Below are positions 29,037 to 47,479 of a stretch of DNA of 47,479 nt, piece by piece. The stretch's first letter is position 1; each line of letters opens with the position of its first letter. A program made the translations under genes and the position numbers. Source of the stretch: a virus; the IMG/VR virus record IMGVR_UViG_3300018080_008428, positions 1 through 47,479 of that record, one strand, 5' to 3'. The notes beneath the pieces are model-generated. The model searched no databases, had not been told where the DNA came from, and saw only the letters and a list, made by a program, of their open reading frames with translations.

Positions 29037-29038
29037 TT

Positions 29039-30646: not shown

Positions 30647-30647
30647 G

Positions 30648-32987: not shown

Positions 32988-33457
32988 TAAAACGATTTCT
33001 GGATTATTCGCTTACCAACCTCTTTAAACTCATCTTCATTCTCTTTAAGTGAAGGGGAAATGGCATCACGGGCGGGGATGTTCATCCGCCTTCCATTCCG
33101 CGCGATTTTATTCACACCGTATGTGAGAATAGCAAAAATATTTGCCAACTTATTGCCCTCACGGTCTTTTGCTGTCCGGTGTGCACCCACCAAATATCCT
33201 TTTCCATCCATATCGTGAGTATCAATACTCCCGACTAAATCACCATCATCAACCAGTGGAGTCGAGCTACCCTTTTTCTCAATAGTGCTCGGTGCATTCG
33301 GTGCGAACTCAAATCGTTCAGTAGTAATGCCCGTCACCATTGAGAAGCGCACCTTTTCGGCTACGCCATGTAACTCTTTTTTGGCGTTACGCTCTATGCT
33401 TTGATTTGCACTTTCCATCATCGCCATAAATTTTTTCCAGTCTCCAGTCTTACGCAT
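32987..33457 (-). CDS. tail completion/HK97 gp10-like protein
   Basis: 156 aa using the ATG at 33457, just before the upstream stop; the longer frame reading upstream is a shadow of the preceding gene. Opening MRKTGDWKKFMAMMES then ELHGVAEKVRFSMVTGITTER; PLVDDGDLVGSIDTHD and VGAHRTAKDREGNKLANIFA (Gly-Ala-His turn) are typical for HK97 gp10-type neck proteins. Ends EVGKRIIQKSF. These proteins finish the tail-neck joint. Confidence 0.7.
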   Translation of the reverse strand: MRKTGDWKKFMAMMESANQSIERNAKKELHGVAEKVRFSMVTGITTERFEFAPNAPSTIEKKGSSTPLVDDGDLVGSIDTHDMDGKGYLVGAHRTAKDREGNKLANIFAILTYGVNKIARNGRRMNIPARDAISPSLKENEDEFKEVGKRIIQKSF

Positions 33458-33803
33458 CGGAGTAAGTCGCCTCACTGGTATCGTCAATAAAATTCTTAAT
33501 ACTAACCTTGTAATACACGCCACCTGCAATCGGTAGCACTTCCACAATCACAAATATTTCGCCTTCAATTTTCAGCCTATCATCGCCAGTGATATTAAAG
33601 CGGAGCATCTGTGGCTTACTCAAATTGAAGTATCCCTTACTCTGCTTAATATCACCCTCATCTGGCTTATCTCGCTTCTTCCATGTAATAAATGGCACGT
33701 AGATTTTTCCGGCACTATCAAACTGCGACATGGTATCATACCCAAAGGCATTACCACTGAGATCCGCACCAGGAGCCAGTCTTAATAATTCAATAGACGT
33801 CAT
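33450..33803 (-). CDS. head closure protein
   Basis: 117 aa. Small all-beta-type neck protein: DTMSQFDSAGKIYVPFITWKK, LRFNITGDDRLKIEGEIFV, and a VYYKVSIKNFIDDT ending. This matches in position and size the head closure/stopper proteins (SPP1 gp16-like) between connector and tail completion. ATGA overlap with the connector gene. Confidence 0.6.
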   Translation of the reverse strand: MTSIELLRLAPGADLSGNAFGYDTMSQFDSAGKIYVPFITWKKRDKPDEGDIKQSKGYFNLSKPQMLRFNITGDDRLKIEGEIFVIVEVLPIAGGVYYKVSIKNFIDDTSEATYSDA

Positions 33804-34444
33804 AGCGCGTACATCTTGATACTTTTCTTTTTATACGGGCGGTAATTCCAGCGGTAGTCGCTTAACAGTCGATCCGCCTCGATATTTCCAGTTGATTCAC
33901 CATACGGGGAATCCTTTACAGAAATACTCATCGCGTCAAACCCCACAGATGTCGCACGGGATTGCATCCGTTGATACATATCGCCGTACAAATAATCCTC
34001 AATGAGAATTGTTAAAGCCGTGTACACGTTGTTCGGTAATTCCTGTCCGTCTGGATACCCAAACGTCCCGACAACTTCAACATTCTTGTAGCCACGGGTG
34101 AATTCATTGTCCTTGTATTGGATATGTGAGGGATATTCCACGAAATCGGTGATTGGTTTCGTCTTACCATCAATCCGAACATTGGTGAGGGAAAGCAACC
34201 GGAACGGCATTTTGACACGATCCACTACACTACCATCGTAGATAAGCGTCATTGATTCCTCACTAAAAAATTGACCAGTGGCACGAAAGACGAGTCCGGA
34301 TAACGTATCAATTAATTTGCTTTTCCGATCCGGAGTCACTTCCGCAGGATCATAACCCTGTGCAGTGAGCAAGCCCTCAAGCTCGCTCACTGACATGATT
34401 TCAGGGATTCTATCTAAGGAGGGATTTACGTCAACAAACCGCAT
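33800..34444 (-). CDS. head-tail connector (gp6/YqbG-like adaptor)
   Basis: 214 aa. Helical N-terminus with LEGLLTAQGYDPAEVTPDRK and IDTLSGLVFRATGQFFSEE, then strands (YDGSVVDRVKMPFRLLSL), GYKNVEVVGTFGYPDGQE and a helix LTILIEDYLYGDMYQRM. The C-terminus DRLLSDYRWNYRP is the typical ending of HK97 gp6-type adaptors that ring the portal. Start ATG at 34444. Confidence 0.7.
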   Translation of the reverse strand: MRFVDVNPSLDRIPEIMSVSELEGLLTAQGYDPAEVTPDRKSKLIDTLSGLVFRATGQFFSEESMTLIYDGSVVDRVKMPFRLLSLTNVRIDGKTKPITDFVEYPSHIQYKDNEFTRGYKNVEVVGTFGYPDGQELPNNVYTALTILIEDYLYGDMYQRMQSRATSVGFDAMSISVKDSPYGESTGNIEADRLLSDYRWNYRPYKKKSIKMYAL

Positions 34445-34452
34445 AGTTGGGT

Positions 34453-35001
34453 TTATTCCTTATCCTTTTTGGTTTCGGAATTCTTCTCACCTTCAAGCGT
34501 CTCAATCCGGTCAAGTAAGTCAGCAATAGTGTCCTCAAATGCTTTCTTGGTTTTACCCAATTTCGTCTGTACACCACGCAACTTGCTCTGGAGATCTTCA
34601 TTCTCTTCTTGTAATGCCTTCAACTGCGAATCTCCGCCTTCCTCTTCATCACCAGAGTTTTCCCGGACCACAATCAGTCCGCTTTCGATAGCCTCTTCCA
34701 CTCTCTTAATGTAGTCGGGCTGACGTTTCAAATTCTCGGTGTCAATGCCGAGTGTCTCCAGCATCTCTTTCCAACGATTCGGGGAGAAATGTCGCCATCC
34801 GGATGCAATCGGATACTGTTGGATCTCAGTGTTAATTTTAAAAGTACCTACCCGTTCGTTTTCCGACAGACGTTGGATACGATTTGCAACCTCATCATCT
34901 TCAGCGAAATAGCGAGTCTTGTCTTTATGAAAAACAACCTTCTCACCGTTTTTACGAGTAAAAATTTTCTTTGCATTACTAATAAGAGTGATTTCAATCA
35001 T
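34453..35001 (-). CDS. coiled-coil protein next to the capsid gene
   Basis: 182 aa. A beta-like N-terminal part of about 50 residues (ITLISNAKKIFTRKNGEKVV), a middle with RWKEMLETLGIDTENLK, an acidic hinge (NSGDEEEGGD) and a C-terminal charged helix of about 55 residues (LKALQEENEDLQSKLRGVQT). Similar small proteins stand after MCP in PBSX-type phages (YqbF position). It may be a decoration or assembly aid. GGAG lies 9 nt upstream of the ATG. Confidence 0.6.
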   Translation of the reverse strand: MIEITLISNAKKIFTRKNGEKVVFHKDKTRYFAEDDEVANRIQRLSENERVGTFKINTEIQQYPIASGWRHFSPNRWKEMLETLGIDTENLKRQPDYIKRVEEAIESGLIVVRENSGDEEEGGDSQLKALQEENEDLQSKLRGVQTKLGKTKKAFEDTIADLLDRIETLEGEKNSETKKDKE

Positions 35002-35093
35002 CGCCCTATTCTCCTCGTTTTTTTATATGTTTATGTCAAACGCCAAATGGCCAAGCCCATAGGGGAAGTGTGAGACACATCCCTAAGCACATG

Positions 35094-35108
35094 CCCCACA
35101 CTTTGGGG
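35094..35108 (-). other. hairpin after the major capsid gene
   Basis: CCCCA (35094-35098) and TGGGG (35104-35108) form a short hairpin with a 5-nt loop, 25 nt after the capsid stop. No T-run. It may stabilise the capsid mRNA or be a partial terminator. The rest of the 131-nt gap shows nothing further. Confidence 0.35.
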
Positions 35109-35132
35109 TGGTGGCGACCACAGGGCGAATCA

Positions 35133-36059
35133 TTATGCAACGTCATACCCCAAGACGAATGCGTCTTCATTGGCAATCTGGAAGCCAATAGGCGCATAGA
35201 TTACCGCATCCAGTACACGTTCCACGATCCGAGTATCGAAACCACGTTCAATACCGGTCCGGTCGATACCATACGTCAAGTTTTTCGGGAACGTAAGGAT
35301 GATCACACCGGAGGGCATCTTCGGTACAGACTTAATCGGGACACCTTCATAGGGCGGATCAGCTTCGCCAGTCAGGTACGGCAGTGCGGCAGAAGTGTTC
35401 GTGCCTGCGATCTGACGGATGTACGCCTGTTTGATACCATCAGAGACATAGAACCGCAACTTGGATTTGTCTCTACGATACTTCTCCGGCAGCGAATCGA
35501 CCATGTTCGGGAATACCATATCCATGTAATCGGCACTTGCATTCGTATCATACACGATAGCATCGTTCTTAGCGATTTTAATCCAGCCGTCCGTAATGGA
35601 GAGGAAATCCACATCGGCGCTGGCATCAGCCGTATCACCGTTCAGTCCCAAATCCTCAATATCATTACCGAATTGCTGTGCAGCCAGCCGCATGATATGT
35701 TTCAGAAGACGACCTTTGATATTCCCATCGGATTCAACAGTCATCCGTTTCAGGGTACGCAGGTCGAGTTCCAACCAGAGTTTGCTTTCAGTCAGCGAAA
35801 TGGAACGCTGGTCGGACGTCACGCTTCCACTCGAACCCTTCTGACCTTTCGTGTGCTTCCTCATCTGACGCCCAGCAAAGGAGAGACGGTCAATCTCTTC
35901 CTCATTCGTAGTCATCTTACGCACATCGCACTCGGACAGGATAACCTGATCATTGATCTGGTAGTCAATGAAACGGTTAGCCTGTTTAGCGTTCAGGAGC
36001 CCACCTGCGTTAAAGGTGGATTCCTGTATCAAACTTTTAAATTCCATGTCAACACTCAT
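35133..36059 (-). CDS. major capsid protein, HK97 fold (XkdG-like)
   Basis: 308 aa. XkdG/P2 gpN-type layout: N-terminal arm (MSVDMEFKSLIQESTFNAGG), a long E-loop part, SLTESKLWLELDLRTLKRM, a spine helix KGRLLKHIMRLAAQQFGNDI followed by the LGLNGDTADASADVDFLSI motif typical of this family, and a P-domain/A-domain with KLRFYVSDGIKQAYI. Ends IANEDAFVLGYDVA. A late-type promoter and a GGAG box lie upstream. It forms the icosahedral shell; the arm may be the region trimmed by the protease. Confidence 0.85.
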   Translation of the reverse strand: MSVDMEFKSLIQESTFNAGGLLNAKQANRFIDYQINDQVILSECDVRKMTTNEEEIDRLSFAGRQMRKHTKGQKGSSGSVTSDQRSISLTESKLWLELDLRTLKRMTVESDGNIKGRLLKHIMRLAAQQFGNDIEDLGLNGDTADASADVDFLSITDGWIKIAKNDAIVYDTNASADYMDMVFPNMVDSLPEKYRRDKSKLRFYVSDGIKQAYIRQIAGTNTSAALPYLTGEADPPYEGVPIKSVPKMPSGVIILTFPKNLTYGIDRTGIERGFDTRIVERVLDAVIYAPIGFQIANEDAFVLGYDVA

Positions 36060-36091
36060 CTCGACATTTCTCCTTTATTAATCAATATGAT

Positions 36092-36120
36092 TTATTGGTT
36101 AAGCATTATTGGGAAAATTT
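36092..36120 (-). promoter_or_regulatory. late-type promoter before the major capsid gene
   Basis: AAATTT (36115-36120), 17 nt starting TCCC, CAATAA (36092-36097) within TGCTTAACCAATAA. The capsid mRNA leader would keep the AAAGGAG ribosome binding site. GGGAA/TTCCC pairing around the A/T tract may also be a weak terminator of the protease gene. Confidence 0.5.
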
Positions 36121-36121
36121 T

Positions 36122-37900
36122 TTATTCCCAAAAATCCTCTGGCTCATCGCCAAGCGGAACATCTACGCTTTTGGTTTCAACTTTCTCATCTTCGGCAACA
36201 TCCTGAGAACTGGGATTCACCTGTCCGCCCAATTCCTCAATCTGTGTATGAGCCGCCTTGAGGTCAGTCTTTGTTTTCTTGAGATCTGATTTCACCGCTT
36301 TCAAGCCCTGCCGGAGTTCGGCAACCTCATCGGGAGAGACAGACTTTTCGCCTTCCTCTTCCTCTTCCAATTCTTCCTTTTCTTCCTCATCGGCAGGCTC
36401 TTCCTCTTCTTCCGGCGCATCTGCCTCGTCAATCTTTTCCTCATCGGGCCCATCCTCCGCTATGTCCTCTTCCGGCTCTGGAGCCTCTTCTTCAACTTCT
36501 TCGACTTCCTCTTCCGGAGTGTCAGATGCCTTGCCGTCCTCGACAGGAGCATACTTCACTCCATCAATTACCACAGTTTTTCCGTCCACTGCTTCCTCCT
36601 TTGTTTCACTTTCTGATTTTACTGCTTTCTCATCCGGGGATTTTGTCACCATCGCAGCAAGGGTTTTAAAAGAACTCACCCAGTCGGATTTCGCAGCATT
36701 AAAAGCCTTGATCGCTTTAAGTTCTTTATCCTCAGCAGACAAGTCTTCGTTGTACAGGATGTTGTAGAGGACACCATCAAGCACATAGGCGATATTCCGG
36801 AGTTTTTCTTTCAGATTCCGGACATCTTCTAACTCTTCATAGTTTGTCCCATCCACGTCTCCCATCACTTCGTTCATCTCGATACCTTTACCCTTGAGAG
36901 CGCCTTTCATCGATTCCGCAAACTTCTTAAAAATCGAAGACTGGTTTCCTTGCTCTTTTCGGATAGCATCAAGTTCTGCTCGGAGTGTTTTAATGTCCGA
37001 TACTTCCATCTCTTCATACTCAGTTGCACCAGACCCAATTGTCTTGCTTTCCTGCGCTGGTTTTTCGTCCTCAGACTGCTCGCTGGCCACGGACCTGGCT
37101 TCAACATCATCTCCCAAAACCAATTCAGGAATGTCGCTACTATAATCGTCCTCTTCGAGTGCAGCAGAAATCGTTTTATAGATTTCTTTCTTTTCAGAGG
37201 ACTCCAAGTGAGCTATATCATCCTCACGATTCGAGTTGAGAATATTCAGGGATGCCACTGCTGCATCAGCATTGACTTTCCCACTTAAATCTTTGTACGG
37301 TAGAATACGGGTAAACTTGCCGTCCACCATTCCGACAAACCCAAAGGATTCATCGGGCATTTTTGCTTTATCTTCATTGTTTAGCACGTATGACATAGGC
37401 TGATCTCCTTCGACTTTGAATTGCTCCACTTTAAATTCCGTACCGTGTGATAAGAGGGCTTTGACATTCATCGGACGATCAACCACACTAATCTCAACCA
37501 ACTCAATGTCGGTTAATACTTTATGCCCCTGATCGTTGTAAGTGTAATCCCGTGTGAGGTATCCGATTGAAAACCCCTTATAGACACCGGCTTGTACTTT
37601 CTTTATGACATCATCATCAAACAATTCGGCTTCGAGCCAAAGTCCACTATCCTCAACGATTAGTACCTTAGCGACGCCCGCGCCACCAAGAAACGGGTTG
37701 TGCATTTGCCGAATATTTGAGAAACGAGCATAAGAATTCACCGCTTTACTAATTGTATCAACAGGTACAATCTCTTCCATGGTGTCGAGATTGTCCTTTG
37801 ACGCCCATCCAATGACTTTATAGCCACCGTCTTTCGTTTCCTTTTGGTCAATTATTTTCAGACCAATGACGTTAAGATTTTTATCGTCAACCTTGTTCAT
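36122..37900 (-). CDS. XkdF-like prohead protease fused to an acidic scaffold-like tail
   Basis: 592 aa from the ATG at 37900 (GGAG 6 nt before it); four extra upstream codons are in frame. Residues 1-145 resemble the XkdF/U35-type phage serine protease: KVIGWASKDNLDTMEEIVP, IRQMHNPFLGGAGVAKVL (His67) and GVYKGFSIGYL (Ser111), then VDRPMNVKALLSHG. Residues about 170-240 carry FGFVGMVDGKFTRILPYKD, usual in XkdF. The last 200 residues are very acidic (runs of EEE) and then coiled coil (RQGLKAVKSDLKKTKTDLK). Protease plus scaffold in one chain allows assembly and self-removal from the prohead. Confidence 0.75.
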   Translation of the reverse strand: MNKVDDKNLNVIGLKIIDQKETKDGGYKVIGWASKDNLDTMEEIVPVDTISKAVNSYARFSNIRQMHNPFLGGAGVAKVLIVEDSGLWLEAELFDDDVIKKVQAGVYKGFSIGYLTRDYTYNDQGHKVLTDIELVEISVVDRPMNVKALLSHGTEFKVEQFKVEGDQPMSYVLNNEDKAKMPDESFGFVGMVDGKFTRILPYKDLSGKVNADAAVASLNILNSNREDDIAHLESSEKKEIYKTISAALEEDDYSSDIPELVLGDDVEARSVASEQSEDEKPAQESKTIGSGATEYEEMEVSDIKTLRAELDAIRKEQGNQSSIFKKFAESMKGALKGKGIEMNEVMGDVDGTNYEELEDVRNLKEKLRNIAYVLDGVLYNILYNEDLSAEDKELKAIKAFNAAKSDWVSSFKTLAAMVTKSPDEKAVKSESETKEEAVDGKTVVIDGVKYAPVEDGKASDTPEEEVEEVEEEAPEPEEDIAEDGPDEEKIDEADAPEEEEEPADEEEKEELEEEEEGEKSVSPDEVAELRQGLKAVKSDLKKTKTDLKAAHTQIEELGGQVNPSSQDVAEDEKVETKSVDVPLGDEPEDFWE

Positions 37901-37914
37901 CGTGTTCTCCATAT

Positions 37915-38859
37915 TTAGGATCGAGTTACCGTTCTACGCATCGAGTCAACCACCAATACAGAACGACAATGAGGATGTAACGGCGGTGCTGCATACCCTT
38001 CCCCAGCTAAGTCAATCGCATCTTTCGTTATGCCCTCTGGATTCAATAACGCATCCACACTTTCAGGAAATGGTGAAATATCCGGCAAAGCCTCTTCGCC
38101 AGATTCCATAACTTTTTCCAAGTGCTCTACGATCCACGACACTTCAAATACTTCACCATTCATAGTGTCGCAGACTTCACTGGTGCGCTCATCCATCACC
38201 GCAACGAATCGCACAGTCGCTACATTGTTTTCGTGAAATGCAAATACCCGTGACCAATTCCGGACACGGTTTGCAGAGGTGCGAGCCACACGCTCATACT
38301 TCCAAAATTCTGTATTCACCACCCCGTTTAACTTCTCATAGATTTGACGGGCTGCTGCTTTTGCCCCCAATCCCTCTTCAAAAACTGCTTCCCGAATTAA
38401 TGTGGAAATATCATCGGAATACGAACCAAACTGTTTGCCAACATAGAAATAATCACTCTGTTTCAGGTACTCCATTGCCTGAAAATCACGGACGTTAAAA
38501 GAGGCGTTGAGCACAGCACTGGATTTAGAGGTATTATAAATTTCCTCAACGTACTGGTCGATAGTGCCAGACATCCGCTTGAGCATATTCCCGTTCCACT
38601 CTTTATTGGCAATACGATTGATGTGCTTAACCAGTGCCTCTTTATCATAATTCAGTTCCAGCCCAGTAATAATCTCATCAGTCTTATCCCTGATTTTCTC
38701 TACGCCGACAATAAAATCCTCAACGATAGAGGCTGCATACCCAAACTCCAAGTTCAGGAAGTCGTTATCGTCCAGCGGATCAGTTTCGGCTGAATCCGCA
38801 GCCTTAAATGCGTCCGCTAACTCAAGTTTACTGACTATATTTGCGTCGAATAGACTCAC
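37915..38859 (-). CDS. MuF-like minor head protein
   Basis: 314 aa, GTG start at 38859, overlapping the portal end by 32 nt. C-terminal MuF (SPP1 gp7-type) core: VARTSANRVRNWSRVFAFHE, FVAVMDERTSEVCDTMNGEVF and PPLHPHCRSVLVVDSMR with the conserved Cys and His residues. The N-terminal 150 residues are helical. Minor head proteins of this type sit with the portal in procapsids and may go with DNA into the host. No additional C-terminal toxin domain is present. Confidence 0.8.
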   Translation of the reverse strand: MSLFDANIVSKLELADAFKAADSAETDPLDDNDFLNLEFGYAASIVEDFIVGVEKIRDKTDEIITGLELNYDKEALVKHINRIANKEWNGNMLKRMSGTIDQYVEEIYNTSKSSAVLNASFNVRDFQAMEYLKQSDYFYVGKQFGSYSDDISTLIREAVFEEGLGAKAAARQIYEKLNGVVNTEFWKYERVARTSANRVRNWSRVFAFHENNVATVRFVAVMDERTSEVCDTMNGEVFEVSWIVEHLEKVMESGEEALPDISPFPESVDALLNPEGITKDAIDLAGEGYAAPPLHPHCRSVLVVDSMRRTVTRS

Positions 38860-40423
38860 TCAGTATATCCAGGGCTTTGGTTTCTGTTGGCGTTAATACG
38901 GTATCAATGACCTTATTTGCGTTTTCGTTGGCCTGATTGGATTTCGCCTGCTTTAACTCTTCAATTGCTCGTAACTTATCCTCACGCTCAAGGATATAGA
39001 TAGGTGTATCAGCAACATCATCATCCTCATATTCCGGTAAACCAATAAAGGCACGAATCTCGTTAAGCGATCCGGCTCTTGTGGATGCAGCACGGTCGGC
39101 TTTTTTCAGGTCTAAATCCGGATAAGAGATGTGCATCTTTTTCCACTGAAATCGAACTTTTACATCTTCGGAGTTGGTTTTACTCTTAATGATGTCCTGT
39201 ACAATGGTCTGATTGATCAGTTCATCAAATTCAACTCGCTCCGGATTAAAAACCTGCTCTTCGGCAATCTCTTTGGCTGCATTAGCAGAGGCACGATTCA
39301 CATTCTCTACGTCTCCAGTAATAATTGGTGACAAACGCCAGATCCTGCGAATCTTTTTATCGTTTGCCTCTTCATATTTTTTCCAACGAGCATCTTTCCA
39401 TTTGTTCATCTCAACAATCTGGATGCCGGCTCGCTGTAAAGGTTTAGTTGGATCGTAACCAGCATCTTCCCCTTCAACCTGCATTACCAGAAAACGGCCC
39501 GCACCGTCCGTCCTATTAAAATTCTCTTTCAGGTAGTTCTGTATATCATCTTCACCATCAATTATCTCACCGTTGGAAATAATCATGGCATAATCAGGTA
39601 CGTTATTATTCTTAAACCGATTGTTATTGGATTTCGCAGCGTAATGATTCCCGGTAATCGCTAATTCGGCTGGTATGTAACGGGGAACGCCATAGTAGGT
39701 AGAATGGGTATTATGAATCTTGACCATGATGAGTTCACTGGCTTGTCTTTCATACGGCACTTCTTTGTATTCACCAGTTTTCCGATCCATTATGCGGTCA
39801 TCGCCAAAATCCCTGTAAAACATAATTGGATCACCGCCACTCAGTTGCACGAATCCCTGCGGTTCCCGTTTACCATTAACTACTTTATCACGTCTTTTCC
39901 GGATATTCTTTGCCGGGCAGAAATAGACAGAGGCGATGTCACCTTTTCGGTTGCGTACAACCTCCATAAATCCGTGTCCAAAAGTTTCACGGTCACGAAT
40001 TATACGTTTGCCGATACTTACAAAATTTTCATGTCGAGTGTTCGGATCGGTTAAGACTTCCTTAATAGCATCCGCCTGTTTTTTAACTGCACCCTTCATC
40101 TTCTCTTCGGCGGACAATTCTTCATCTATTGCATTAATAAGCCATCCGAATCCCGCAACATTTTGTTCCATTGCAGTAATATTACCAGCAACGATCTCAC
40201 TCTTTTCCGGTACAACAGCCAGAGCGTGCATATCAAAGGGGGTCGGGACAATATTATGTTCATTCTCGCCCTCATAAATGGACGATTCCTTTTGTATCGC
40301 CTGCTTGGTTTCGGCCTTCTCTTTGTTATAGACAACCTTGCGGCCAAACAGGTTTAAAGCCTTGTCAATCTCATCTCTTGCCCCAGCTTTAATTAGTTTT
40401 GCTTTGACTTTCCCTTTTCCCAT
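38828..40423 (-). CDS. portal protein, PBSX type
   Basis: 531 aa. PBSX/XkdE-like portal: PEKSEIVAGNITAMEQNVAG at the start, FVSIGKRIIRDRETFGHGFME, VYFCPAKNIRKRRDK, IMVKIHNTHSTYYGVPRYIP (the conserved YYGxPxY motif), then AKSNNNRFKNNNVPDYAM, and a stem/wing part with RRIWRLSPIITGDVENVNRAS. The ring of 12 forms the DNA gate of the capsid. No terminase gene lies upstream: the neighbours on the right are small early-type genes. A strong sigma70 promoter lies upstream. Confidence 0.85.
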   Translation of the reverse strand: MGKGKVKAKLIKAGARDEIDKALNLFGRKVVYNKEKAETKQAIQKESSIYEGENEHNIVPTPFDMHALAVVPEKSEIVAGNITAMEQNVAGFGWLINAIDEELSAEEKMKGAVKKQADAIKEVLTDPNTRHENFVSIGKRIIRDRETFGHGFMEVVRNRKGDIASVYFCPAKNIRKRRDKVVNGKREPQGFVQLSGGDPIMFYRDFGDDRIMDRKTGEYKEVPYERQASELIMVKIHNTHSTYYGVPRYIPAELAITGNHYAAKSNNNRFKNNNVPDYAMIISNGEIIDGEDDIQNYLKENFNRTDGAGRFLVMQVEGEDAGYDPTKPLQRAGIQIVEMNKWKDARWKKYEEANDKKIRRIWRLSPIITGDVENVNRASANAAKEIAEEQVFNPERVEFDELINQTIVQDIIKSKTNSEDVKVRFQWKKMHISYPDLDLKKADRAASTRAGSLNEIRAFIGLPEYEDDDVADTPIYILEREDKLRAIEELKQAKSNQANENANKVIDTVLTPTETKALDILSESIRRKYSQ

Positions 40424-40459
40424 AACACCTTTGATGTTTATTTATTAATGCATTATGCT

Positions 40460-40503
40460 TTATCAATCAAACTAATTATATATATACAACAATAGGAAGT
40501 CAA
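40460..40503 (-). promoter_or_regulatory. sigma70 promoter plus late-type box before the portal gene
   Basis: Minus strand TTGACT (40498-40503), 17 nt, TATAAT (40475-40480), a near-perfect sigma70 promoter. Just after it lies GTTTGATTGATAAAGC with TGATAA at 40460-40465, the same box as in the late-type promoters. Two start points are therefore likely for the head operon. Confidence 0.65.
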
Positions 40504-40565
40504 TGCAAGTTGGTTACTTGACAATGGTACTCGAAAAGTTCCACGGTGGGAAAGATGTCGGTGGG

Positions 40566-40598
40566 AATAAAAAGACCCTGCAAGTCTCTTTACAGGCC
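40566..40598 (-). terminator. possible terminator of the early block
   Basis: On the minus strand an imperfect stem (GGCCTG ... CAGGGTC) is followed by TCTTTTTATT. It lies after the last early gene and before the portal promoter, where a stop would be expected. Stem pairing is weak. Confidence 0.35.
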
Positions 40599-40650
40599 TT
40601 TTCGACTACAACGTTTTTTCATTCAGGCGGTATTTGATAATGATGTTAAG

Positions 40651-40848
40651 TTAATATACTACAATGGTCGTCTCCTTTCGTTTGGTTCGAGATTGCACCT
40701 GTTTCTGATTACAAGCACAGTAAAGTGAATTAACCTTCCAGGGCATTTTTGGTTTCACTTTTTTACGTCCGAGTTGACTCAGAAATTTCGTGTGAAGTCC
40801 TTTAAAATCTTTCAGGATGTCTACCAACTCCAAATCGTTAAAACTCAT
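40651..40848 (-). CDS. small protein of unknown function
   Basis: 65 aa. N-terminal acidic helix (LELVDILKDFKGLHTKFLSQ), then basic (GRKKVKPKMPWK) and a CAC pair (LYCACNQKQ). No recognised family. No good ribosome binding site, but the start lies 9 nt after the stop of the possibly broken upstream frame, so coupling is possible. It is the last gene of the early block. Confidence 0.4.
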   Translation of the reverse strand: MSFNDLELVDILKDFKGLHTKFLSQLGRKKVKPKMPWKVNSLYCACNQKQVQSRTKRKETTIVVY

Positions 40849-40856
40849 CCAGACAT

Positions 40857-41061
40857 TCAGGCTTCGACCGCCTCCTCCGAGACTTTCAACTTTAGCACAT
40901 CGTTGACACTTGCTTTGTCTGGTAACTCCTCTTTATTGGCGTATAAACTACCGGACTCTGCTTCACGGCCACACTGCGTCTCACCCGAATCATCTTTGAC
41001 ATAATGTCACGTTCTCCCCGTTGCAAATACAGCAGGCAAAATCCCTTTTCCTTATCTTGTG
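40857..41061 (-). pseudogene. small Cys-rich gene, apparently frame-disrupted
   Basis: Two open frames on the minus strand join well only with a one-base skip near 40994-40999 (in the run CAAAG). The first reads KRDFACCICNGENVTLCQ, the second DDSGETQCGREAESGSLY and continues to a TGA at 40857 (ends VSEEAVEA). Together they would make a small four/five-Cys protein like its neighbours. Neither frame has a clear ATG; GGGGAG occurs within. It may be a decayed gene, a sequencing slip in an A-run, or a +1 frameshift. Confidence 0.3.
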
Positions 41062-41067
41062 TTATTG

Positions 41068-41292
41068 TTACGACTGTAACTCTTCTTCTAAAACTTCCGG
41101 CGACCACAATACACCACATAGCGGCTTTAATACCTCAATCGGTGCGTTCTTAGCGTGGGTGCACCGTAACACCCCATTGTCCATATTGAGTTTCTCACAC
41201 TTGTTCCCACGTGTTGGGTCAATCTGACACTCATCATACTTCAAATAGAAATTTTCCGGTGTCAGGTTTTTCCTGTCCGATTTCTTACTCAC
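41068..41292 (-). CDS. Cys-containing small protein, early block
   Basis: 74 aa, GTG start at 41292 overlapping the upstream TGA (GTGA), with AAGGAG and good spacing. The reading frame extends further upstream but only as a shadow of the preceding gene. Four Cys are spread as DECQIDPTRGNKCEKL, LRCTHAKN and PLCG, a possible zinc or iron-sulfur-type site. No family recognised. Confidence 0.6.
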   Translation of the reverse strand: MSKKSDRKNLTPENFYLKYDECQIDPTRGNKCEKLNMDNGVLRCTHAKNAPIEVLKPLCGVLWSPEVLEEELQS

Positions 41293-41612
41293 AAATCCTC
41301 TCCTTCCGCTGCCAGTTGAAATAAATTCTCTAACAGATACGTTTGTTTTGTTTGCTCTCTTACAAAATGGCTCGTAACCAGAAACCATCGGTACTTATCA
41401 TACCACGCCTTAATATTTATCACACCTAATCGTTCAGCGATTTTATGTAACAATCGCTTGGCATCCACCACATCATCAGGGAAATATGCAGCCCACGTAT
41501 GTCCACGATACTCGACAAAGTACCGTGGACGTGGTAAGGTGAATTTTTCGCCAGTGCGTAATGAAATATACCGTGCATTATCCCACTGCGTTTTCTGGAC
41601 GAATATGCTCAT
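41289..41612 (-). CDS. early-block protein of unknown function
   Basis: 107 aa. Mixed Arg, Trp and Tyr rich sequence with RPRYFVEYRGHTWAAYFPDD, then a helix DAKRLLHKIAERLGVINIK, WYDKYRWFLVTSHF and an acidic end. No domain is recognised. The ATG overlaps the stop of the upstream membrane protein (ATGA), and its own end overlaps the next GTG, so the three genes are one translational unit. Confidence 0.65.
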   Translation of the reverse strand: MSIFVQKTQWDNARYISLRTGEKFTLPRPRYFVEYRGHTWAAYFPDDVVDAKRLLHKIAERLGVINIKAWYDKYRWFLVTSHFVREQTKQTYLLENLFQLAAEGEDL

Positions 41613-41932
41613 TGTACCCTGTGACTCCTTCTCAACGAATCCATTTGAGCAAAAGAATCATCCGAAGAACGAAATGAGTGCGGTACAGGTGGGTGATTGA
41701 TTATATAGCGAGTCAGTTCCGTCCTGAGACGTATTGTGTTTTCCAATACGCCGGATGTCTCATCGACTATCTCATAGAATGAGTCATAGTACGTCTGTTC
41801 CCAACTCTCGATAATACTTTTCTGGTATTGGATCTTTACCCTTTGAGCAAAGATGATCAGTACGGCTCCCAACAACAAACCAGTAACTATCTGGCTTTTG
41901 TGTGAACCTTGTAACCATTTTTTCCAGCTCAT
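41609..41932 (-). CDS. single-pass membrane protein, early block
   Basis: 107 aa. Basic N-terminus (KKWLQGSHKSQ), one membrane helix at about 15-31 (IVTGLLLGAVLIIFAQR), then a soluble helical part (WEQTYYDSFYEIVDETSG). A small inner-membrane protein in the early region could serve superinfection exclusion or host takeover; there is no specific evidence. ATGA overlap with the next gene; 4-nt overlap with the previous one. Confidence 0.65.
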   Translation of the reverse strand: MSWKKWLQGSHKSQIVTGLLLGAVLIIFAQRVKIQYQKSIIESWEQTYYDSFYEIVDETSGVLENTIRLRTELTRYIINHPPVPHSFRSSDDSFAQMDSLRRSHRVQ

Positions 41933-42270
41933 GCTTCGGCTCCAGCCAATTCCTGAGCCTCTTCGATTGATGCGGTAACTTCCGCATCCTCATTATCCGC
42001 ATCCTCTGCAATTTCCTCATACACACGCGGAAATTGACATTTCGGGCAAACCACATCAGCACCAGTGGTGAGATTTGTGCCAACTTTACCCCGACCGTAA
42101 CATCCATCCTGTTTACAATTCGGATTAGGTTCCGGTGCATCGACTTCGATTGTATTTGGGAATTTCTCTACAAGTAGAGCCATTCCAAGACTATTTTGAA
42201 CAATAACCTGCCCATCATCATTGTAATCCAAGTGATCGCTTTGCGCTGCAAATGTCTGCAACTTCTCCAT
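41929..42270 (-). CDS. zinc-ribbon-like small protein
   Basis: 113 aa from the ATG at 42270 (AAAGGG 8 nt upstream); a second ATG two codons earlier is too close to the binding site. Central Cys pairs: NPNCKQDGCYGRGKVG and DVVCPKCQF form a likely zinc ribbon (C-x4-C and C-x2-C, with a GxG turn as in DnaJ-type fingers). The tail is Glu/Ala-rich (EEIAEDADNEDAEV). Could be a transcription or chaperone-like regulator; unknown. Confidence 0.65.
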   Translation of the reverse strand: MEKLQTFAAQSDHLDYNDDGQVIVQNSLGMALLVEKFPNTIEVDAPEPNPNCKQDGCYGRGKVGTNLTTGADVVCPKCQFPRVYEEIAEDADNEDAEVTASIEEAQELAGAEA

Positions 42271-42288
42271 CGACATTACCCTTTCTCT

Positions 42289-42627
42289 TTAGTGATTATT
42301 CAATAAATAGTAGCGTTGCTCACGCCACTCATCGTTCTCGTTCCAGTGTATTACTACTCCAATAAACCCCTCACTGAACATTCGCATACGAAACGTCTCA
42401 TCCCGTGCCAGACTACTCGCAAACATCTGCACCATCTTTTTCGTAGGTTCCTCTGTTGCATTTTGCGCTGATATGCCTAACGGTATTTCATAATCGTCCT
42501 CATGCCCCTGTTTCCACGGCTCTTCATCTGACTGGGATTGTACATCCGGACGCAGATTCTTTTGGCTCGGAGTCGTTAATACGATTGGGGCAAATAGTTT
42601 CTCAATTGGCTTCGGTGCTTTACTCAT
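42289..42627 (-). CDS. early-block protein of unknown function
   Basis: 112 aa. N-terminal half is unordered and Pro/Ser/Asp rich. C-terminal half is a helix plus strands (MVQMFASSLARDETFRMRMF, GFIGVVIHWNENDEWREQRY). GAAAGGG lies 4 nt before the ATG. Promoter of the early family just upstream at 42684-42712. No domain recognised. Confidence 0.65.
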   Translation of the reverse strand: MSKAPKPIEKLFAPIVLTTPSQKNLRPDVQSQSDEEPWKQGHEDDYEIPLGISAQNATEEPTKKMVQMFASSLARDETFRMRMFSEGFIGVVIHWNENDEWREQRYYLLNNH

Positions 42628-42683
42628 ATTACCCTTTCGCTTTACCTATATAACTTAATAGTTAAAAAAATATGACCACTTAT

Positions 42684-42712
42684 AGCATAACGAATAATGC
42701 GTTATTAGGCAA
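42684..42712 (-). promoter_or_regulatory. early-family promoter 3
   Basis: Minus strand TTGCCT (42707-42712), 17 nt, TATGCT (42684-42689), then ATAAG. Core GCATTATTCGTTATGC matches the two promoters at 44.6 and 46.4 kb. An overlapping alternative, TTGACA-16-TAATAA, also resembles sigma70 and the late-type box. Confidence 0.5.
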
Positions 42713-43348
42713 TCATTTATCCTTGTCAACCAGTTCGTACCCACGGATGTCAGCACACTCTTCACAACAGCGTTCACCATCGGTAAACTCAAGTGATAGT
42801 TTCGTCACTTTCAGCGGTTCATTAACAAATATCTCACCACAAAAAACGCAAAACCATTCCGACTTAACCGGAATCGCATAGTACCATTCTCCGGTCGGTG
42901 AGTCGTGGTGGAAATTATGAACTTTGATTCCTTTCTGATCGCCGTGTTCATATTCATAAATCTTGAATGAGCAGTCCGTTTCTGGAAGTATCTTGGACAA
43001 AAATTGCTGTCCATCATTCTTGCCATCCAGGGCAAGTTGAGCATGACCACCCAAATTTCTCCACCCGAAGTTACGTCTCTCGACATACCAGAGTCCGGGT
43101 TTCTCTTCGTTCTCCAATTCCTGTAAGGTGTATTTCAGATTTTCGGCAAGGCACTGCCATTCCCAATCGAAAAAACTCTGGCTCCCGAGGGTATTTTCAA
43201 ACGCCTCATCTTCATTTTCGTACACACCTTCATCCACCAATCGTTTGGCTTCCGCTTTAGCCAAATCAAGCGCACTCCAAGAGTGTCGGAGTATATCCTC
43301 ATCTCTGCGCTTCCTTATCCCTTCTTTAGCGTTGTTGATTTCTGACAT
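42713..43348 (-). CDS. zinc-finger-containing early protein
   Basis: 211 aa from the ATG at 43348, with GAGG about 5 nt before it; the frame remains open upstream to a GTG within a palindrome. Two thirds is helical and charged (ALDLAKAEAKRLVDEGVYEN). The C-terminus carries FCVFCGEIFVNEP and GERCCEECADIRGYE, a four-Cys finger (CxxC ... CxxC). A middle part, GWRNLGGHAQLALDGKNDG, is unrecognised. A 15-bp palindrome lies upstream, suggesting repressor control. Confidence 0.65.
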   Translation of the reverse strand: MSEINNAKEGIRKRRDEDILRHSWSALDLAKAEAKRLVDEGVYENEDEAFENTLGSQSFFDWEWQCLAENLKYTLQELENEEKPGLWYVERRNFGWRNLGGHAQLALDGKNDGQQFLSKILPETDCSFKIYEYEHGDQKGIKVHNFHHDSPTGEWYYAIPVKSEWFCVFCGEIFVNEPLKVTKLSLEFTDGERCCEECADIRGYELVDKDK

Positions 43349-43371
43349 CATTACCTCTTCCGTAATCTTGT

Positions 43372-43386
43372 GTTCCACGGTGGAAC
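43372..43386. promoter_or_regulatory. 15-bp palindrome GTTCCACGGTGGAAC, putative operator
   Basis: Perfect two-fold symmetric GTTCCAC-G-GTGGAAC in the short gap between two early genes. An identical copy is at 23938-23952 in the spike gene, and an imperfect copy (GTTCCACGGTGGGAA) is at 40538-40552 before the portal gene. The 14-nt relative GTTCCACGTGGAAC is known as a parS-like arrangement, but the extra central base differs. Confidence 0.4.
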
Positions 43387-43388
43387 GG

Positions 43389-43589
43389 TTATCGGCTTAT
43401 CATTGCGTGAATTTCAACACCACAATCATCTGTAATCATCCGGATTACTTCACGTAACCGTGATTCCGGCTCTTCGTCTCGATGAGCGTTACATTCACCA
43501 CACCAAATCTGACTTTGATGCTTGATGTAATCGTCCTTGCAGTTGCAGTCCCAAAACATAGGTGTTAAGACTAATTCGCTCTCAGGCAT
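43389..43589 (-). CDS. Cys-rich small protein
   Basis: 66 aa from the ATG at 43589, which overlaps the upstream stop as TAATG; the longer frame is a shadow. Cys pairs in WDCNCKDDYIKHQ and WCGECNAHRDEE make a likely zinc site. The C-terminal half is acidic and helical (SRLREVIRMITDD). Another member of the small Cys-rich set in this block. Function unknown. Confidence 0.6.
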   Translation of the reverse strand: MPESELVLTPMFWDCNCKDDYIKHQSQIWCGECNAHRDEEPESRLREVIRMITDDCGVEIHAMISR

Positions 43590-43810
43590 TACTCCATTCC
43601 TTTCTGTTTTGCAAGTCGCTCTGCATCCGCTACACAGCGACAATGCGGATTATTTTTTCCATACTTAGCCATAAATTTTGCACCTGCCATTGTCTTAAAC
43701 TCTCCAATGCAGTACAAATATTTATCGCCGTGTGCTCGTTCAGTAGGTTCGGAATCGCTTTCAAATATCTCATGTTTAAACGAATTTCTCTTAACTCCGA
43801 TGTAAATCAT
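43589..43810 (-). CDS. small early-block protein
   Basis: 73 aa. MIYIGVKRNSFKHEIFESDS, then a middle KYLYCIGEFKTMAGAKFMAK and a CRC pair (NNPHCRCVADAERLAK). The GAKFMAKYGKNNPHCRCV part resembles a compact nucleic-acid-binding or host-interaction fold, but there is no named family. ATG overlaps the end of a possible tiny upstream frame; AGG lies close by. Confidence 0.55.
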   Translation of the reverse strand: MIYIGVKRNSFKHEIFESDSEPTERAHGDKYLYCIGEFKTMAGAKFMAKYGKNNPHCRCVADAERLAKQKGME

Positions 43811-43817
43811 TTCAACC

Positions 43818-43898
43818 TCACTTTCGTGAAAATTTGTATGCCATCCGCCCGACCCGTGTTTTCCGTTTCATGCCTTTTTTGGAACTGGGAGTGAACAT
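43818..43898 (-). CDS. possible 26-residue basic peptide
   Basis: MFTPSSKKGMKRKTRVGRMA and so on, ending YKFSRK: eleven Lys/Arg residues. The stop lies 7 nt before the next start. No clear ribosome binding site. A second frame in the same gap gives a 34-aa peptide (43807-43911) ending in an ATGA overlap. One of the two, or neither, may be real. Confidence 0.3.
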   Translation of the reverse strand: MFTPSSKKGMKRKTRVGRMAYKFSRK

Positions 43899-43947
43899 CA
43901 AAGGAAAACATCTAAACGAAAACTCGTCTCCCGACTGATCAGCAAAT

Positions 43948-44334
43948 TTATTCTTCGGAATGCTGTTCCTGAAAATCCCTACCAATTGTTCGGTTGAAAT
44001 TTTTCAATATCTTAACCACTTGATCCAGTTGACCGCATTCCCGATCAAATTGAGTAGCGCGTCCCTGCAACTCACCTAAACTGTTATAGTTGGCGTCATA
44101 TCCATCTTCTTCTAACTTTTCAATTAAACGCCCCATATCTCGATGGATGCTTTCAGCTAATTGCCTCAAATTTGAAAAATGATATTCAGCCTCAATTTTC
44201 AGTTTATTGTACATATTAAACAATCCTGTAGTAGAGATAGAGACATCACCACCCTTACTATCAATTTCGGCTCGCATTAAACCTTCAAACATCTTCTCAG
44301 AATCTTCGCGTGTCTTCCTGTCTCGTAGGCTCAT
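43948..44334 (-). CDS. helical early-block protein
   Basis: 128 aa from the ATG at 44334 (GGAG 6 nt upstream); a longer frame is a shadow over the next gene. Almost wholly helical and charged: SLRDRKTREDSEKMFEGLMR, NMYNKLKIEAEYHFSNLRQ, AESIHRDMGRLIEKLEED and VVKILKNFNRTIGRDF. A coiled coil with two or three helices is likely. No motif. Confidence 0.65.
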   Translation of the reverse strand: MSLRDRKTREDSEKMFEGLMRAEIDSKGGDVSISTTGLFNMYNKLKIEAEYHFSNLRQLAESIHRDMGRLIEKLEEDGYDANYNSLGELQGRATQFDRECGQLDQVVKILKNFNRTIGRDFQEQHSEE

Positions 44335-44359
44335 TTTCATCTCCGTGTAAATAATAAAA

Positions 44360-44527
44360 TTAAACCATCTCCCAACTATTTCTCTTGGTTCCACAATACC
44401 GACACTTGTAAATATGGCCTGCCCCATACATCGTATCTATACTATCAGGATGTACGTCAAACAAACACAATACAGAATACAAAAGTGAGGAAATTTGAGT
44501 GCTTGATTTTCTCAGTTGGTTTTGCAT
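44360..44527 (-). CDS. 55-residue Cys-pair protein, first gene after early promoter 2
   Basis: Short gene with a perfect ribosome binding site (GGAG, 5 nt, ATG). MQNQLRKSSTQISSLLY, then FDVHPDSIDTM and YKCRYCGTKRNSWEMV: a half zinc finger (CxxC) at the end. The leader resembles that of the gene at 46007-46300. It lies 25 nt upstream of the next coding start. Function unknown; possibly a transcription or nuclease cofactor. Confidence 0.6.
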   Translation of the reverse strand: MQNQLRKSSTQISSLLYSVLCLFDVHPDSIDTMYGAGHIYKCRYCGTKRNSWEMV

Positions 44528-44573
44528 GATTTCTCCTTATTTGAAAAATAAGTATTTGATTATTGTTACTTAT

Positions 44574-44602
44574 AACTTAACGTATATTGCTTTAGTGTAC
44601 AA
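44574..44602 (-). promoter_or_regulatory. early-family promoter 2
   Basis: TTGTAC (44597-44602), 17 nt, TAAGTT (44574-44579), then ATAAG. Core ACTAAAGCAATATACGT closely matches promoter 1 at 46344-46372. It would drive the 44360-44527 gene and those after it. Confidence 0.6.
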
Positions 44603-44611
44603 ACATAAATG

Positions 44612-44651
44612 GCAATAAAAAGCCCCCACATCCAAAAAAATGTGGGGGCTT
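44612..44651 (-). terminator. rho-independent terminator of the ArdA operon
   Basis: Perfect 12-bp stem AAGCCCCCACAT (44620-44631) / ATGTGGGGGCTT (44640-44651) with an 8-nt loop, followed on the minus strand by TTTTTATT. It ends the 46300-44802 operon just before promoter 2. The 150 nt between the operon end and the stem show no gene. Confidence 0.85.
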
Positions 44652-44801
44652 GCTGTACCCTCAACAAATACGAGATAGATAAGCGCTGAAAACAATGGGC
44701 AACTAGCATGGTGAAGTGAATGCAATACTTAATCCACCTTACCGTCCCCCCAATAAATCTCGCATCCAATGTGTTTAATATATTTTATCTTCTTTTATAT
44801 A

Positions 44802-45056
44802 TCAACCATCATCAGACTCAATTTCATTAACCTGTTTTATATAAATCCCCGAACCGTCAACCTCTTCGACAACACCATCGGCAATTGAATTAATGGTATC
44901 CTCATTAATCCTTGCAGATTTGGCTACGCCGTGAATCATCAGCCGACTTACATAATGTCGAATTGCCCAGTACACATCATTGGACAGTTTTTGCTGATCC
45001 TCACTCATTTCCTTATGATGTTGCAGGTTCGGAAGCGTGTCTGGATGCTTACTCAT
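44802..45056 (-). CDS. small helical protein, last gene of ArdA operon
   Basis: 84 aa from the ATG at 45056 (AAAGGA 5 nt upstream), overlapping the stop region of the preceding gene. MSKHPDTLPNLQHHKEMSED, then DVYWAIRHYVSRLMIHGVAK and a C-terminus with VVEEVDGSGIYIKQVNEIE. No family recognised. Acidic end. Confidence 0.6.
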   Translation of the reverse strand: MSKHPDTLPNLQHHKEMSEDQQKLSNDVYWAIRHYVSRLMIHGVAKSARINEDTINSIADGVVEEVDGSGIYIKQVNEIESDDG

Positions 45057-45240
45057 CGGATTCCTTTCGTTGTTTTTTGACATGATGCCTGAGCAATTCA
45101 AATGCCCGTAATTCTTGTTTACCATCCAGTTGTGTAACGTGTAAAAATACTTCCATGCCGATACCCAGTGGTTTTAGCATAGCCGTAGATAATTCGTTTC
45201 GCTCAAGTTTCTCGTATGCCTCATCAAATGTTAAAGACAT
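45049..45240 (-). CDS. small protein downstream of ardA
   Basis: 63 aa from the ATG at 45240 (AGGGG 5 nt upstream), inside the end of ardA; the longer frame is a shadow. SLTFDEAYEKLERNELSTAM, then GIGMEVFLHVTQLDGKQELR and a basic end. Looks like a small acidic helix-plus-strands protein of the kind often found with antirestriction genes. No named family. Confidence 0.6.
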   Translation of the reverse strand: MSLTFDEAYEKLERNELSTAMLKPLGIGMEVFLHVTQLDGKQELRAFELLRHHVKKQRKESDE

Positions 45241-45796
45241 ATATACCCCTATCTGACATCGCACCGTCATCCACCACTTCATAAATGGCAAACTCTCCAT
45301 GATGAGCATCTCGATACACCGTTTCCCAATCAATGTAACTCCGGAGCCAATCATCTAACGGTACGCCTGTGATTCGGTCAAAGTATTCTCGACAGAAATC
45401 TTCCTTTTCGTTGAAGTGTCCGATAAACGCACTATTGAATCTATCTTCCGCCTCACCTGACTCAACGAATTGCAGGTGCTCTTCCGCCCACAGAATAAAT
45501 GCCAAGCCATGCTCTTCCATAAGATCGGCTACCTCAATCAAGTGCCATAACCCAACCTTAGTATAGAGGGAAGGACGAATACCGATTGTGTCAAAGACAT
45601 CCCATTCTTCATGCGGATACCCATCTTCGGCACTTGCCGGATATTCGTGTGATTCCATGAAATCATCAATTTCATCTTCAAATTCCCCTTTGCGCCTATC
45701 GGTTATCTCAAACCATTCTCCGACAAGGTGGCCATGATTATAACATTTCAGGCAACCGACCCTTACCGCAGGAACATCCGGTAATTCGTTACCCAT
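45224..45796 (-). CDS. ardA: ArdA-type antirestriction protein
   Basis: 190 aa. ArdA proteins mimic B-DNA and block type I restriction enzymes. Here: VRVGCLKCYNHGHLVGEWFE at the start (typical CLxxYNxGxLxGxWxD region), then EEWDVFDTIGIRPSLYTKVG, LIEVADLMEEHGLAFILWAE, and the C-terminal EDRFNSAFIGHFNEKEDF followed by WLRSYIDWETVYRDAHHGEF (conserved YIDWExxxRD). Negative charge is high overall. The CLKC pair is unusual. GGAGG lies 6 nt before the ATG. Second or third gene after early promoter 1, as suits a protein needed directly after entry. Confidence 0.85.
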   Translation of the reverse strand: MGNELPDVPAVRVGCLKCYNHGHLVGEWFEITDRRKGEFEDEIDDFMESHEYPASAEDGYPHEEWDVFDTIGIRPSLYTKVGLWHLIEVADLMEEHGLAFILWAEEHLQFVESGEAEDRFNSAFIGHFNEKEDFCREYFDRITGVPLDDWLRSYIDWETVYRDAHHGEFAIYEVVDDGAMSDRGIYVFNI

Positions 45797-45989
45797 GATG
45801 CACCTCCATTATCGTCTGGTGAATATCTTGATTCATCCGCATTTGGGAATACGGGTATTCATTTTCAATTTCCCGTATCTCAGCATGGACTTGTTCGTTG
45901 CTCTTGTATTTTCCGGAGTGCAACTTCGCATGAAGCTTGACGTATCGCTTGTACGCCCGTTCTTCTTTGTCTTGGAGTTGTTCTGACAT
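45789..45989 (-). CDS. small coiled-coil protein upstream of ardA
   Basis: 66 aa from the ATG at 45989 (AAAGGA 6 nt upstream); the longer reading needs a TTG. EQLQDKEERAYKRYVKLHAK, then EQVHAEIREIENEYPYSQ: a charged helical hairpin. It overlaps the start of ardA by 8 nt, so both are translated together. Function unknown. Confidence 0.6.
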   Translation of the reverse strand: MSEQLQDKEERAYKRYVKLHAKLHSGKYKSNEQVHAEIREIENEYPYSQMRMNQDIHQTIMEVHHG

Positions 45990-46006
45990 CTGCAATCCTT
46001 TCTGTT

Positions 46007-46300
46007 TTACGCTTCGACACCTAACAACTGTTTGAATATTGCACGGACAAATTCGGGGCGTGGGTGTCGCTCCACTTCCCGATACCGTGCAAACACATTT
46101 AAGTAGTGTGATTTTCCGTCCTTATCAGAAACGATAGCGAAGTATTCCTGCTCATCATCTCCTTCAACAAGCATGACTTCAATTTCGTCCTGGTCTTGCT
46201 CCAGATGCTTTGCGATTAAACTATGACAAAGCACGTGTTCATCTACCCCCCTACTCTGCATTTGGTGGGCAGCAATTTGATTCAAATAGTGGGTTTGCAT
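46007..46300 (-). CDS. first gene of the ArdA operon
   Basis: 97 aa. MQTHYLNQIAAHQMQSRGVD, then an acidic beta stretch (DEIEVMLVEGDDEQEYFAIV), KSHYLNVFARYREVERHPRP, and a helical end FVRAIFKQLLGVEA. GGAG lies 7 nt before the ATG. Directly follows early promoter 1. No family recognised; acidic character is shared with the following genes. Confidence 0.6.
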   Translation of the reverse strand: MQTHYLNQIAAHQMQSRGVDEHVLCHSLIAKHLEQDQDEIEVMLVEGDDEQEYFAIVSDKDGKSHYLNVFARYREVERHPRPEFVRAIFKQLLGVEA

Positions 46301-46459: not shown

Positions 46460-46666
46460 ATGAAAAAAATCACCCCTCTCATTCTATTCTTATTCCCAGT
46501 AATTGTACTCAGTCAGGTAGTCAAAAAGGCTGATTATTTTCCAGACATCAGCTCTACCGGATTGGCAACTAAATTTGATTTCAAGGCGATTGACTATGGC
46601 TCAGATTTGCGAACAGAGATTATCTCAGTAAAATCGGATCCCGGTAACTCGACCTTTGGATCATAA
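46460..46666 (+). CDS. small secreted protein at the prophage end
   Basis: 68 aa, the only rightward gene of the phage side. Clear signal peptide (MKKITPLILFLFPVIVLSQ), then about 48 residues with no known motif (PDISSTGLATKFDFKAID). Its stop codon TAA (46664-46666) lies within the tRNA-like sequence, so its 3' end would change upon excision. A position next to attR and opposite in direction to the phage genes is typical of a lysogenic-conversion gene, but the gene may also be a truncated remnant. Confidence 0.45.
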   Translation: MKKITPLILFLFPVIVLSQVVKKADYFPDISSTGLATKFDFKAIDYGSDLRTEIISVKSDPGNSTFGS

Positions 46667-46702
46667 ACTCAAAGATCAGCGGTTCAAGTCCGCTCCCCGC
46701 TA
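46659..46702 (+). tRNA. 3' tRNA fragment, probable attR core
   Basis: A perfect T-arm, AGCGG (46678-46682), TTCAAGT, CCGCT (46690-46694), is followed by CCCCGCT and A, the 3' side of an acceptor stem, then CTA (no CCA encoded). The matching AGCGGGG 5' side is absent upstream. The stretch TCATAA at 46661 could be a CAT (Met) anticodon loop, but its stem does not pair properly. It is a partial tRNA, as left by phage insertion into a tRNA gene. Confidence 0.6.
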
Positions 46703-46708
46703 CTACTG

Positions 46709-46750
46709 AAACCCCCGTCGTTACATGCTTTGCGGCGATAGGGGTTTTTT
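46709..46750 (+). terminator. terminator of the tRNA gene
   Basis: AAACCCC-CGTCG (46709-46720) pairs with CGGCG (46733-46737) and GGGGTTT (46741-46747) with a 3-nt bulge; it is followed by a run of six T. Placed 6 nt after the tRNA end, as expected for the native downstream end of the tRNA transcript. Confidence 0.7.
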
Positions 46751-46830
46751 CGTTTCTAGCGAATGCCAACAAACACTCTACTACGTATACGTTACACAGT
46801 TTCCTGTTTTTAGAATCTTGTTTTAAACGA

Positions 46831-46953
46831 CAACCTCACCCTTATTCCCTCTCCTTCGCAAGAGAGGGATGTGCGATTTCTAAACACTGAAGGTTAAAAA
46901 GTTGCTTTGTTAAGCCCCTTCTGATTCGAGGAGAGGGGTTTGTGGTGAGGTGA
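46831..46953. repeat. palindromic intergenic repeat
   Basis: ACCTCACC (46833-46840) and GGTGAGGT (46944-46951) bracket an inner hairpin TCCCTCTC/GAGAGGGA around 46846-46868 and a CCCCT/AGGGG pair around 46915-46937. Such nested CCTCACC...CCCTCTCC elements are widespread in bacterial chromosomes. It marks this part as host DNA rather than phage. Confidence 0.5.
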
Positions 46954-46978
46954 CGGCTTATTTCATCAATGATTTCGC

Positions 46979-47479
46979 TTAGATAATCCCCTGAGCAGCA
47001 ACCCACGAATTTAATGCTTTTTCAAACTGTTCTCCATGAATTGGATCTAAGGGCGAAAATAGATTCTCTTTTTCATCGTTAATGATATTAATGATTTCCC
47101 GTTTATCGGACTTATTGCTTACGGTTATAATATTTAACATAATGTTTGTCCATTTTTCCTTGTATTCTAGGGGAATATTTTCAAGCCATAACCACTTGAA
47201 AAACTTTAATGACATCTGGATTAAATTCTCTTTTGGGATATTTTCATTTCTCAATGAATTAAACGTTTTCAATACCTTTTTTGATGAATAGAAATTTACT
47301 GATTCAACTGCATGTTTAAGGGTTTCAGTGTTAATAATAACATGATGATAATTTAACGATATCATTTTAATTAACTTCGCATTAAATCCTTTCTCTGATA
47401 TAATACCATCTTTTTTTAGTTTAAGTAGTAATGAACTAGTTGAAAGCGAATCATGACCCCAATTTGACTTTAGTAACAT
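46979..47479 (-). CDS. host protein, partial, PIN-associated C-terminal-like
   Basis: 166 aa up to the window edge; the first ATG is at the edge itself, so the true start may lie outside. Opening NWGHDSLSTSSLLLKLKKDG then ISEKGFNAKLIKMISLNYHH and INTETLKHAVESVN resembles the C-terminal helical half of some PIN-domain or tetratricopeptide-associated proteins, but this is only an impression. The low GC and Lys/Asn/Ile richness differ from the phage genes, supporting host or other mobile origin. Confidence 0.45.
   Translation of the reverse strand: MLLKSNWGHDSLSTSSLLLKLKKDGIISEKGFNAKLIKMISLNYHHVIINTETLKHAVESVNFYSSKKVLKTFNSLRNENIPKENLIQMSLKFFKWLWLENIPLEYKEKWTNIMLNIITVSNKSDKREIINIINDEKENLFSPLDPIHGEQFEKALNSWVAAQGII

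Follow-up and report, generated by a model that had tools for sequence, protein, structure and literature searches.

Displaced 3' tRNA fragments with anticodon-centered crossovers are described as a usual mark of tyrosine-integrase islands (PMC4383910; PMC9897764). Of the 3919 mapped islands counted in the first of these accounts, 3760 have 3' fragments, and the crossover is anticodon-centered in 2083. Anticodon stem-loops are also reported to resemble integrase core sites, as set out in PMC8371274. The arrangement is common and well described, and the mechanism that we propose below for a phage contig is nothing new.

The window analyzed here, 47,479 bases long, covers one IMG/VR virus record from end to end, base 1 being the start of the record, where no border of the element is seen. 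Close to its right end stands the 3' part of a tRNA gene, with its start near the anticodon loop, phage genes to its 5' side and a terminator behind it; the features are collected in Table 1. A fragment starting near the anticodon loop, a terminator and mobile-element genes on the 5' side are together the expected anatomy of an attR. We accordingly read the site as the attR (the displaced tRNA 3' fragment) of a prophage or phage-derived integrated element, and put the probability of this reading at about 0.7.

Table 1. Features of the 47,479-base window bearing on the proposed attachment site
Feature	Position	Strand	Basis or remark
Phage genes	1..46300	-	Protein-family matches
ORF with metallo-phosphoesterase match	14339-15790	-	Residues 181-446, E 2.3e-32
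68-aa ORF	46460..46666	+	Start signal-peptide-like by eye
5-bp inverted repeat CTTTG/CAAAG around the anticodon loop	46654..46674		Read from the sequence
tRNA 3' half, CAT-anticodon (tRNA-Met-type)	46661..46705	+	tRNA-Met model, random controls, blastn
Intrinsic terminator hairpin and T-run, directly behind the tRNA 3' end	~46708..46748	+	-19.6 kcal/mol
Presumed host flank	46751..47479		Inverted repeat pair and low-G+C ORF
Inverted repeat pair, CCTCACC...CCTCTCC and inverted copy	Arms 46833-46855 and 46929-46951		In right flank
Low-G+C ORF reaching the contig end	46979-47479	-	29.5% G+C

The fragment comprises most of the anticodon loop, the 3' strand of the anticodon stem, the variable loop, the T-arm, the 3' strand of the acceptor stem and the discriminator. 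It is thus longer than the T-arm and acceptor strand first noticed, and extends back to the anticodon loop. The CAT anticodon occupies 46662-46664. The T-arm, AGCGG-TTCAAGT-CCGCT (46678-46694), has a fully paired stem, and the acceptor 3' strand CCCCGCT (46695-46701), which agrees with that of tRNA-Met genes, is followed by A46702; the terminus is CTA (46703-46705), and CCA is absent. (T-arm and acceptor positions were read by eye against a sequence ruler.) Relative to tRNA-Met genes there is one irregularity, a surplus base that lies past the anticodon and before the variable loop. The left part of the fragment would then either have come, in imperfect form, from the phage or have undergone decay. 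The inverted repeat around the anticodon loop is a possible candidate for the integrase core site, but counts for little alone because 57 repeats of this type with the same spacing occur in the window. The T-loop consensus GGTTCRANYCC, which occurs twice in the window (the other copy is at 16746) against 0.35 expected, is likewise weak evidence by itself.

How far does the homology extend? A covariance model built from six tRNA-Met genes gave a single match in the whole window (E 0.0002). Uncut, the match spans the full length including a 5' half and scores 25.0 bits; when the sequence is cut at 46655, 46661, 46667 or 46673, the scores are 36.9, 37.4, 35.4 and 32.9 bits, respectively. Because truncation of a match is allowed for only at a cut, what these scores give is an approximate start of homology, near the anticodon loop, without single-base precision. 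The best of the four cuts, 46661, is in the anticodon loop, a known crossover sublocation, and the exact base is approximate, the 46655 cut being 0.5 bits lower. Compared with the six tRNA-Met genes, 46661-46705 scores 32, whereas random 45-mers of the window (n = 6000, both strands) reach at most 7. The stretch 46661-46677 alone scores 8, a value equalled by four of 31,000 random stretches; 46655-46677 also scores 8 against five tRNA-Met genes, which was reached by none of 16,000, so that the left limit could be a few bases further left. The 5' half is equalled by 464 of 3000 random stretches and is therefore unsupported. The model scores and random-stretch controls thus confirm what the preliminary description had claimed, a T-arm and acceptor 3' half without a 5' half. 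The general Rfam tRNA model reaches 12 bits at 46673-46694 (E 0.52), which is under its cut-off.

A complete, degenerate tRNA at 46633-46705 was also considered, because GGTAACTCG is D-loop-like, the length fits and the model alignment is full-length. It was rejected: adding the 5' half cuts the score from 37.4 to 25.0 bits. The D-arm similarity is matched by 586 of 6000 random stretches, and with the model filters off the same region gives a weak 9.5-bit match on the opposite strand. ARAGORN finds no complete tRNA gene in the window.

In blastn comparisons with the tRNA-Met genes L002 and L006, the alignment begins at 46661. With 46650-46706 as query, blastn matched 10 plasmid and 48 phage records. 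Inspection of four of the 10 plasmid matches revealed three tRNA-Met genes (Azospirillum, 86% over 43 bases; Nocardia; Acetoanaerobium) and a Haloarcula tRNA-Ile(gat) matched over 19 bases. Among the 15 phage matches listed, three are annotated tRNA-Met genes of Rhizobium phages, and the other 12, of 22-26 bases, fall in other genes. A CAT anticodon is shared by initiator Met, elongator Met and Ile2 tRNAs, and the anticodon stem of initiators typically has three G-C pairs. Because these pairs are not evident in the anticodon stem of the fragment, no single isotype is assigned. The L002 gene has an identical 3' end (CCCCGCTA), which faces a CGCGGGG start; an unpaired first base is typical of initiator tRNAs. 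The intact tRNA may begin with AGCGGGG, as had been predicted, but given the start of L002 this is not certain.

Exact 36-mers and 27-mers of the fragment were not found in a collection of genomes from 84,980 species, nor was an exact 26-mer found in other viral contigs; such exact-stretch scans may omit records very near the window's own. A degenerate 25-mer retrieved one complete tRNA-Met from another viral contig. A 17-mer of the anticodon region hit four viral-contig stretches, none with the T-arm motif nearby, and these are taken as chance, as are seven Rfam matches within 46000-47479, all under the family cut-offs. No match to 46640-47000 was found in E. coli genomes.

A terminator right behind the tRNA 3' end had also been claimed, and is borne out by the strong hairpin and T-run listed in Table 1. 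Measured over 40 bases, its energy (-16.3) is the lowest of 188 T-run positions on the plus strand, and one of 88 on the minus strand lies lower (44621, -21.4 kcal/mol). When the T-arm and hairpin are folded together, 194 of 200 shuffles fold less well (z -2.19). A simple terminator scan did not list the 46708-46748 hairpin. The minus-strand hairpin at 44621 is near the stretch at 44346 in which the phage part has its lowest G+C content.

The 68-aa ORF that runs into the fragment does use tRNA bases for its stop codon, as first described: the TAA at 46664-46666 is inside the anticodon loop. The ORF matched no Pfam, PHROG or NCBIfam family and no phage record, and the tRNA fragment overlaps no conserved protein domain. 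One could imagine that the anticodon region is a phage-specific variant under selection, such that the gene for this possibly exported protein and the att site co-evolve in a phage lineage with no close relative in the collections searched; we regard this as quite improbable.

If the site is an attR, the target of the prophage or phage-derived element would have been a host tRNA gene whose anticodon is CAT. Strand exchange at or near the anticodon loop would have been the work of a tyrosine integrase, its gene presumably lying to the left of base 1. With a phage-borne copy of the 3' half, the tRNA would then be made whole again at the far (left) junction, and the original host 3' half with its terminator would be displaced to the right end of the element. 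The attR proposal of the preliminary description stands as far as the anatomy goes (3' fragment, terminator, phage genes on the 5' side), but the window holds neither a second copy of the core nor PF00589. No other copy of the 28-base core AGCGG..CTACTA was found within the 47,479 bases with up to 3 mismatches allowed, and neither the tyrosine integrase domain (PF00589) nor the serine recombinase domain (PF00239) was found in this 47-kb window, the left part of the element lying outside it. One ORF, 14339-15790, has a weak match to the phrog_95 'integrase' profile (residues 9-120, E 7.2e-05). The same protein is much closer to metallo-phosphoesterases (E 2.3e-32), has no Pfam match and showed neither recombinase domain.

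Is the DNA to the right of the fragment host or phage? To the right of the terminator lie 729 bases that are likely of host origin but look only weakly host-like. The main competing explanation is that the site is the attP of a free, unintegrated phage, that is, the phage's own copy of a tRNA 3' half, flanked on either side by phage DNA. We consider this unlikely. It draws support from a third-order Markov model, which finds no break between phage and right flank (z 0.31) and in which the right-hand ORF outscores most phage windows; the 228 bases before this ORF are also phage-like in composition (42.5% G+C). The ORF itself, however, is more A+T-rich than all windows of its size in the phage part, its G+C content being lower than that of every 501-bp window of 1-46650 (minimum 33.7%). 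The homology searches bear on both sides: no relatives of the ORF were found in the plasmid, phage and viral-contig collections, which lends its host origin no support, but it also matches no phage family, which argues against an attP. The ORF hits a cyclin model (E 0.0037) and, with E 0.012, an endoglucanase chain; both hits are weak and taken as chance. A defense-family scan of 10 right-end proteins found nothing.

Three further points count against an attP. First, neither integrase domain was found in the window. Second, the inverted repeat pair adjoins the right-hand ORF; its pattern occurs nowhere else in the window. Third, a terminator behind a tRNA end would be expected more of a chromosomal tRNA gene. 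As to the repeat motif, a similar but not identical one is present in 31 viral-contig stretches, nine of which have more than one copy; in none of the 31 loci (spacer 4-8) are both orientations found within 300 bases, unlike the window.

Somewhat less probable still is that the fragment is a decayed tRNA remnant unrelated to integration, either a phage tRNA now without its 5' half or a scar left by an older element. The irregular anticodon arm would fit such decay, as would a window without a recombinase domain or second core copy. Decay sits poorly, however, with a fully paired T-arm, a tRNA-Met-like acceptor strand and an intact terminator, and the break is near the anticodon loop, a standard crossover point, in a fragment that stands at the edge of phage genes. 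That phage and host sequence were artificially joined at the tRNA is conceivable for a record from an assembled virus collection but very improbable, since the join is at a biologically expected point and the 5' tRNA half is unsupported.

Protein families matched on the phage side include tail sheath, tape measure, baseplate wedge, portal, Mu-F-like protein, prohead protease, major capsid, tail tube, neck, endolysin and ArdA. The ArdA-type antirestriction gene (45224-45796, minus strand, Pfam E 1e-17) lies close to where the phage part ends on the right. A terminase was not recognized in the window with PF03237 and family scans, despite the portal, capsid and tail genes, and may be encoded beyond the left end of the record.

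Relatives of this phage are distant. The capsid matched 229 phage records, and the 15 matches listed are all Streptomyces phages, at 30.9-33.5% identity; to one virus contig the identity is 36%. Used as single queries in viral contigs, the capsid found two relatives and the portal none. A three-row capsid alignment gave at least 477 matches in viral contigs, of which 80 were kept (28-34% identity). When 22 window proteins were compared with these 80 contigs plus L004 and L005 (82), the best 15 of the 82 had matches beyond the capsid only to the portal, the protease, Mu-F, the sheath or gene 33800-34444. These relatives are too distant for a comparison of integration sites or to show how they integrate.

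The attR reading makes several predictions. If it is true, the intact cognate tRNA at the left border would end ...AGCGGTTCAAGTCCGCTCCCCGCTA. The fragment would mark the probable right border of the element, and the phage, for which only distant relatives were found, would be predicted to lead a temperate life. Given a genome with the intact tRNA, the tag of about 45 bases could also name the host.

Comparison with described elements places the locus as follows. In the mycobacteriophage tRNA-dependent lysogeny described in PMC10865867, a tyrosine integrase directs insertion into a tRNA gene, as would be the case here. In that description the sequence common to attP and attB is only about 10 bp long, and the phage carries a gene for a complete replacement tRNA; in the present window, which is part of an element, ARAGORN finds no tRNA gene. 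The element PYG1 of Pyrococcus yayanosii, integrated at tRNA-Gln, is archaeal and both of its repeat copies are known, whereas one is seen here; according to the published account (PMC9897764), it has a partial tRNA copy at one end, as here, and its repeats are 44 bp long compared with about 45 bases for our fragment. The islands and prophages of the Islander set, as presented in PMC4383910, differ in that here a single border is seen, with no cognate intact tRNA or integrase in view, but they likewise carry a 3' tRNA fragment that starts near the anticodon and stands at the edge of a mobile element.
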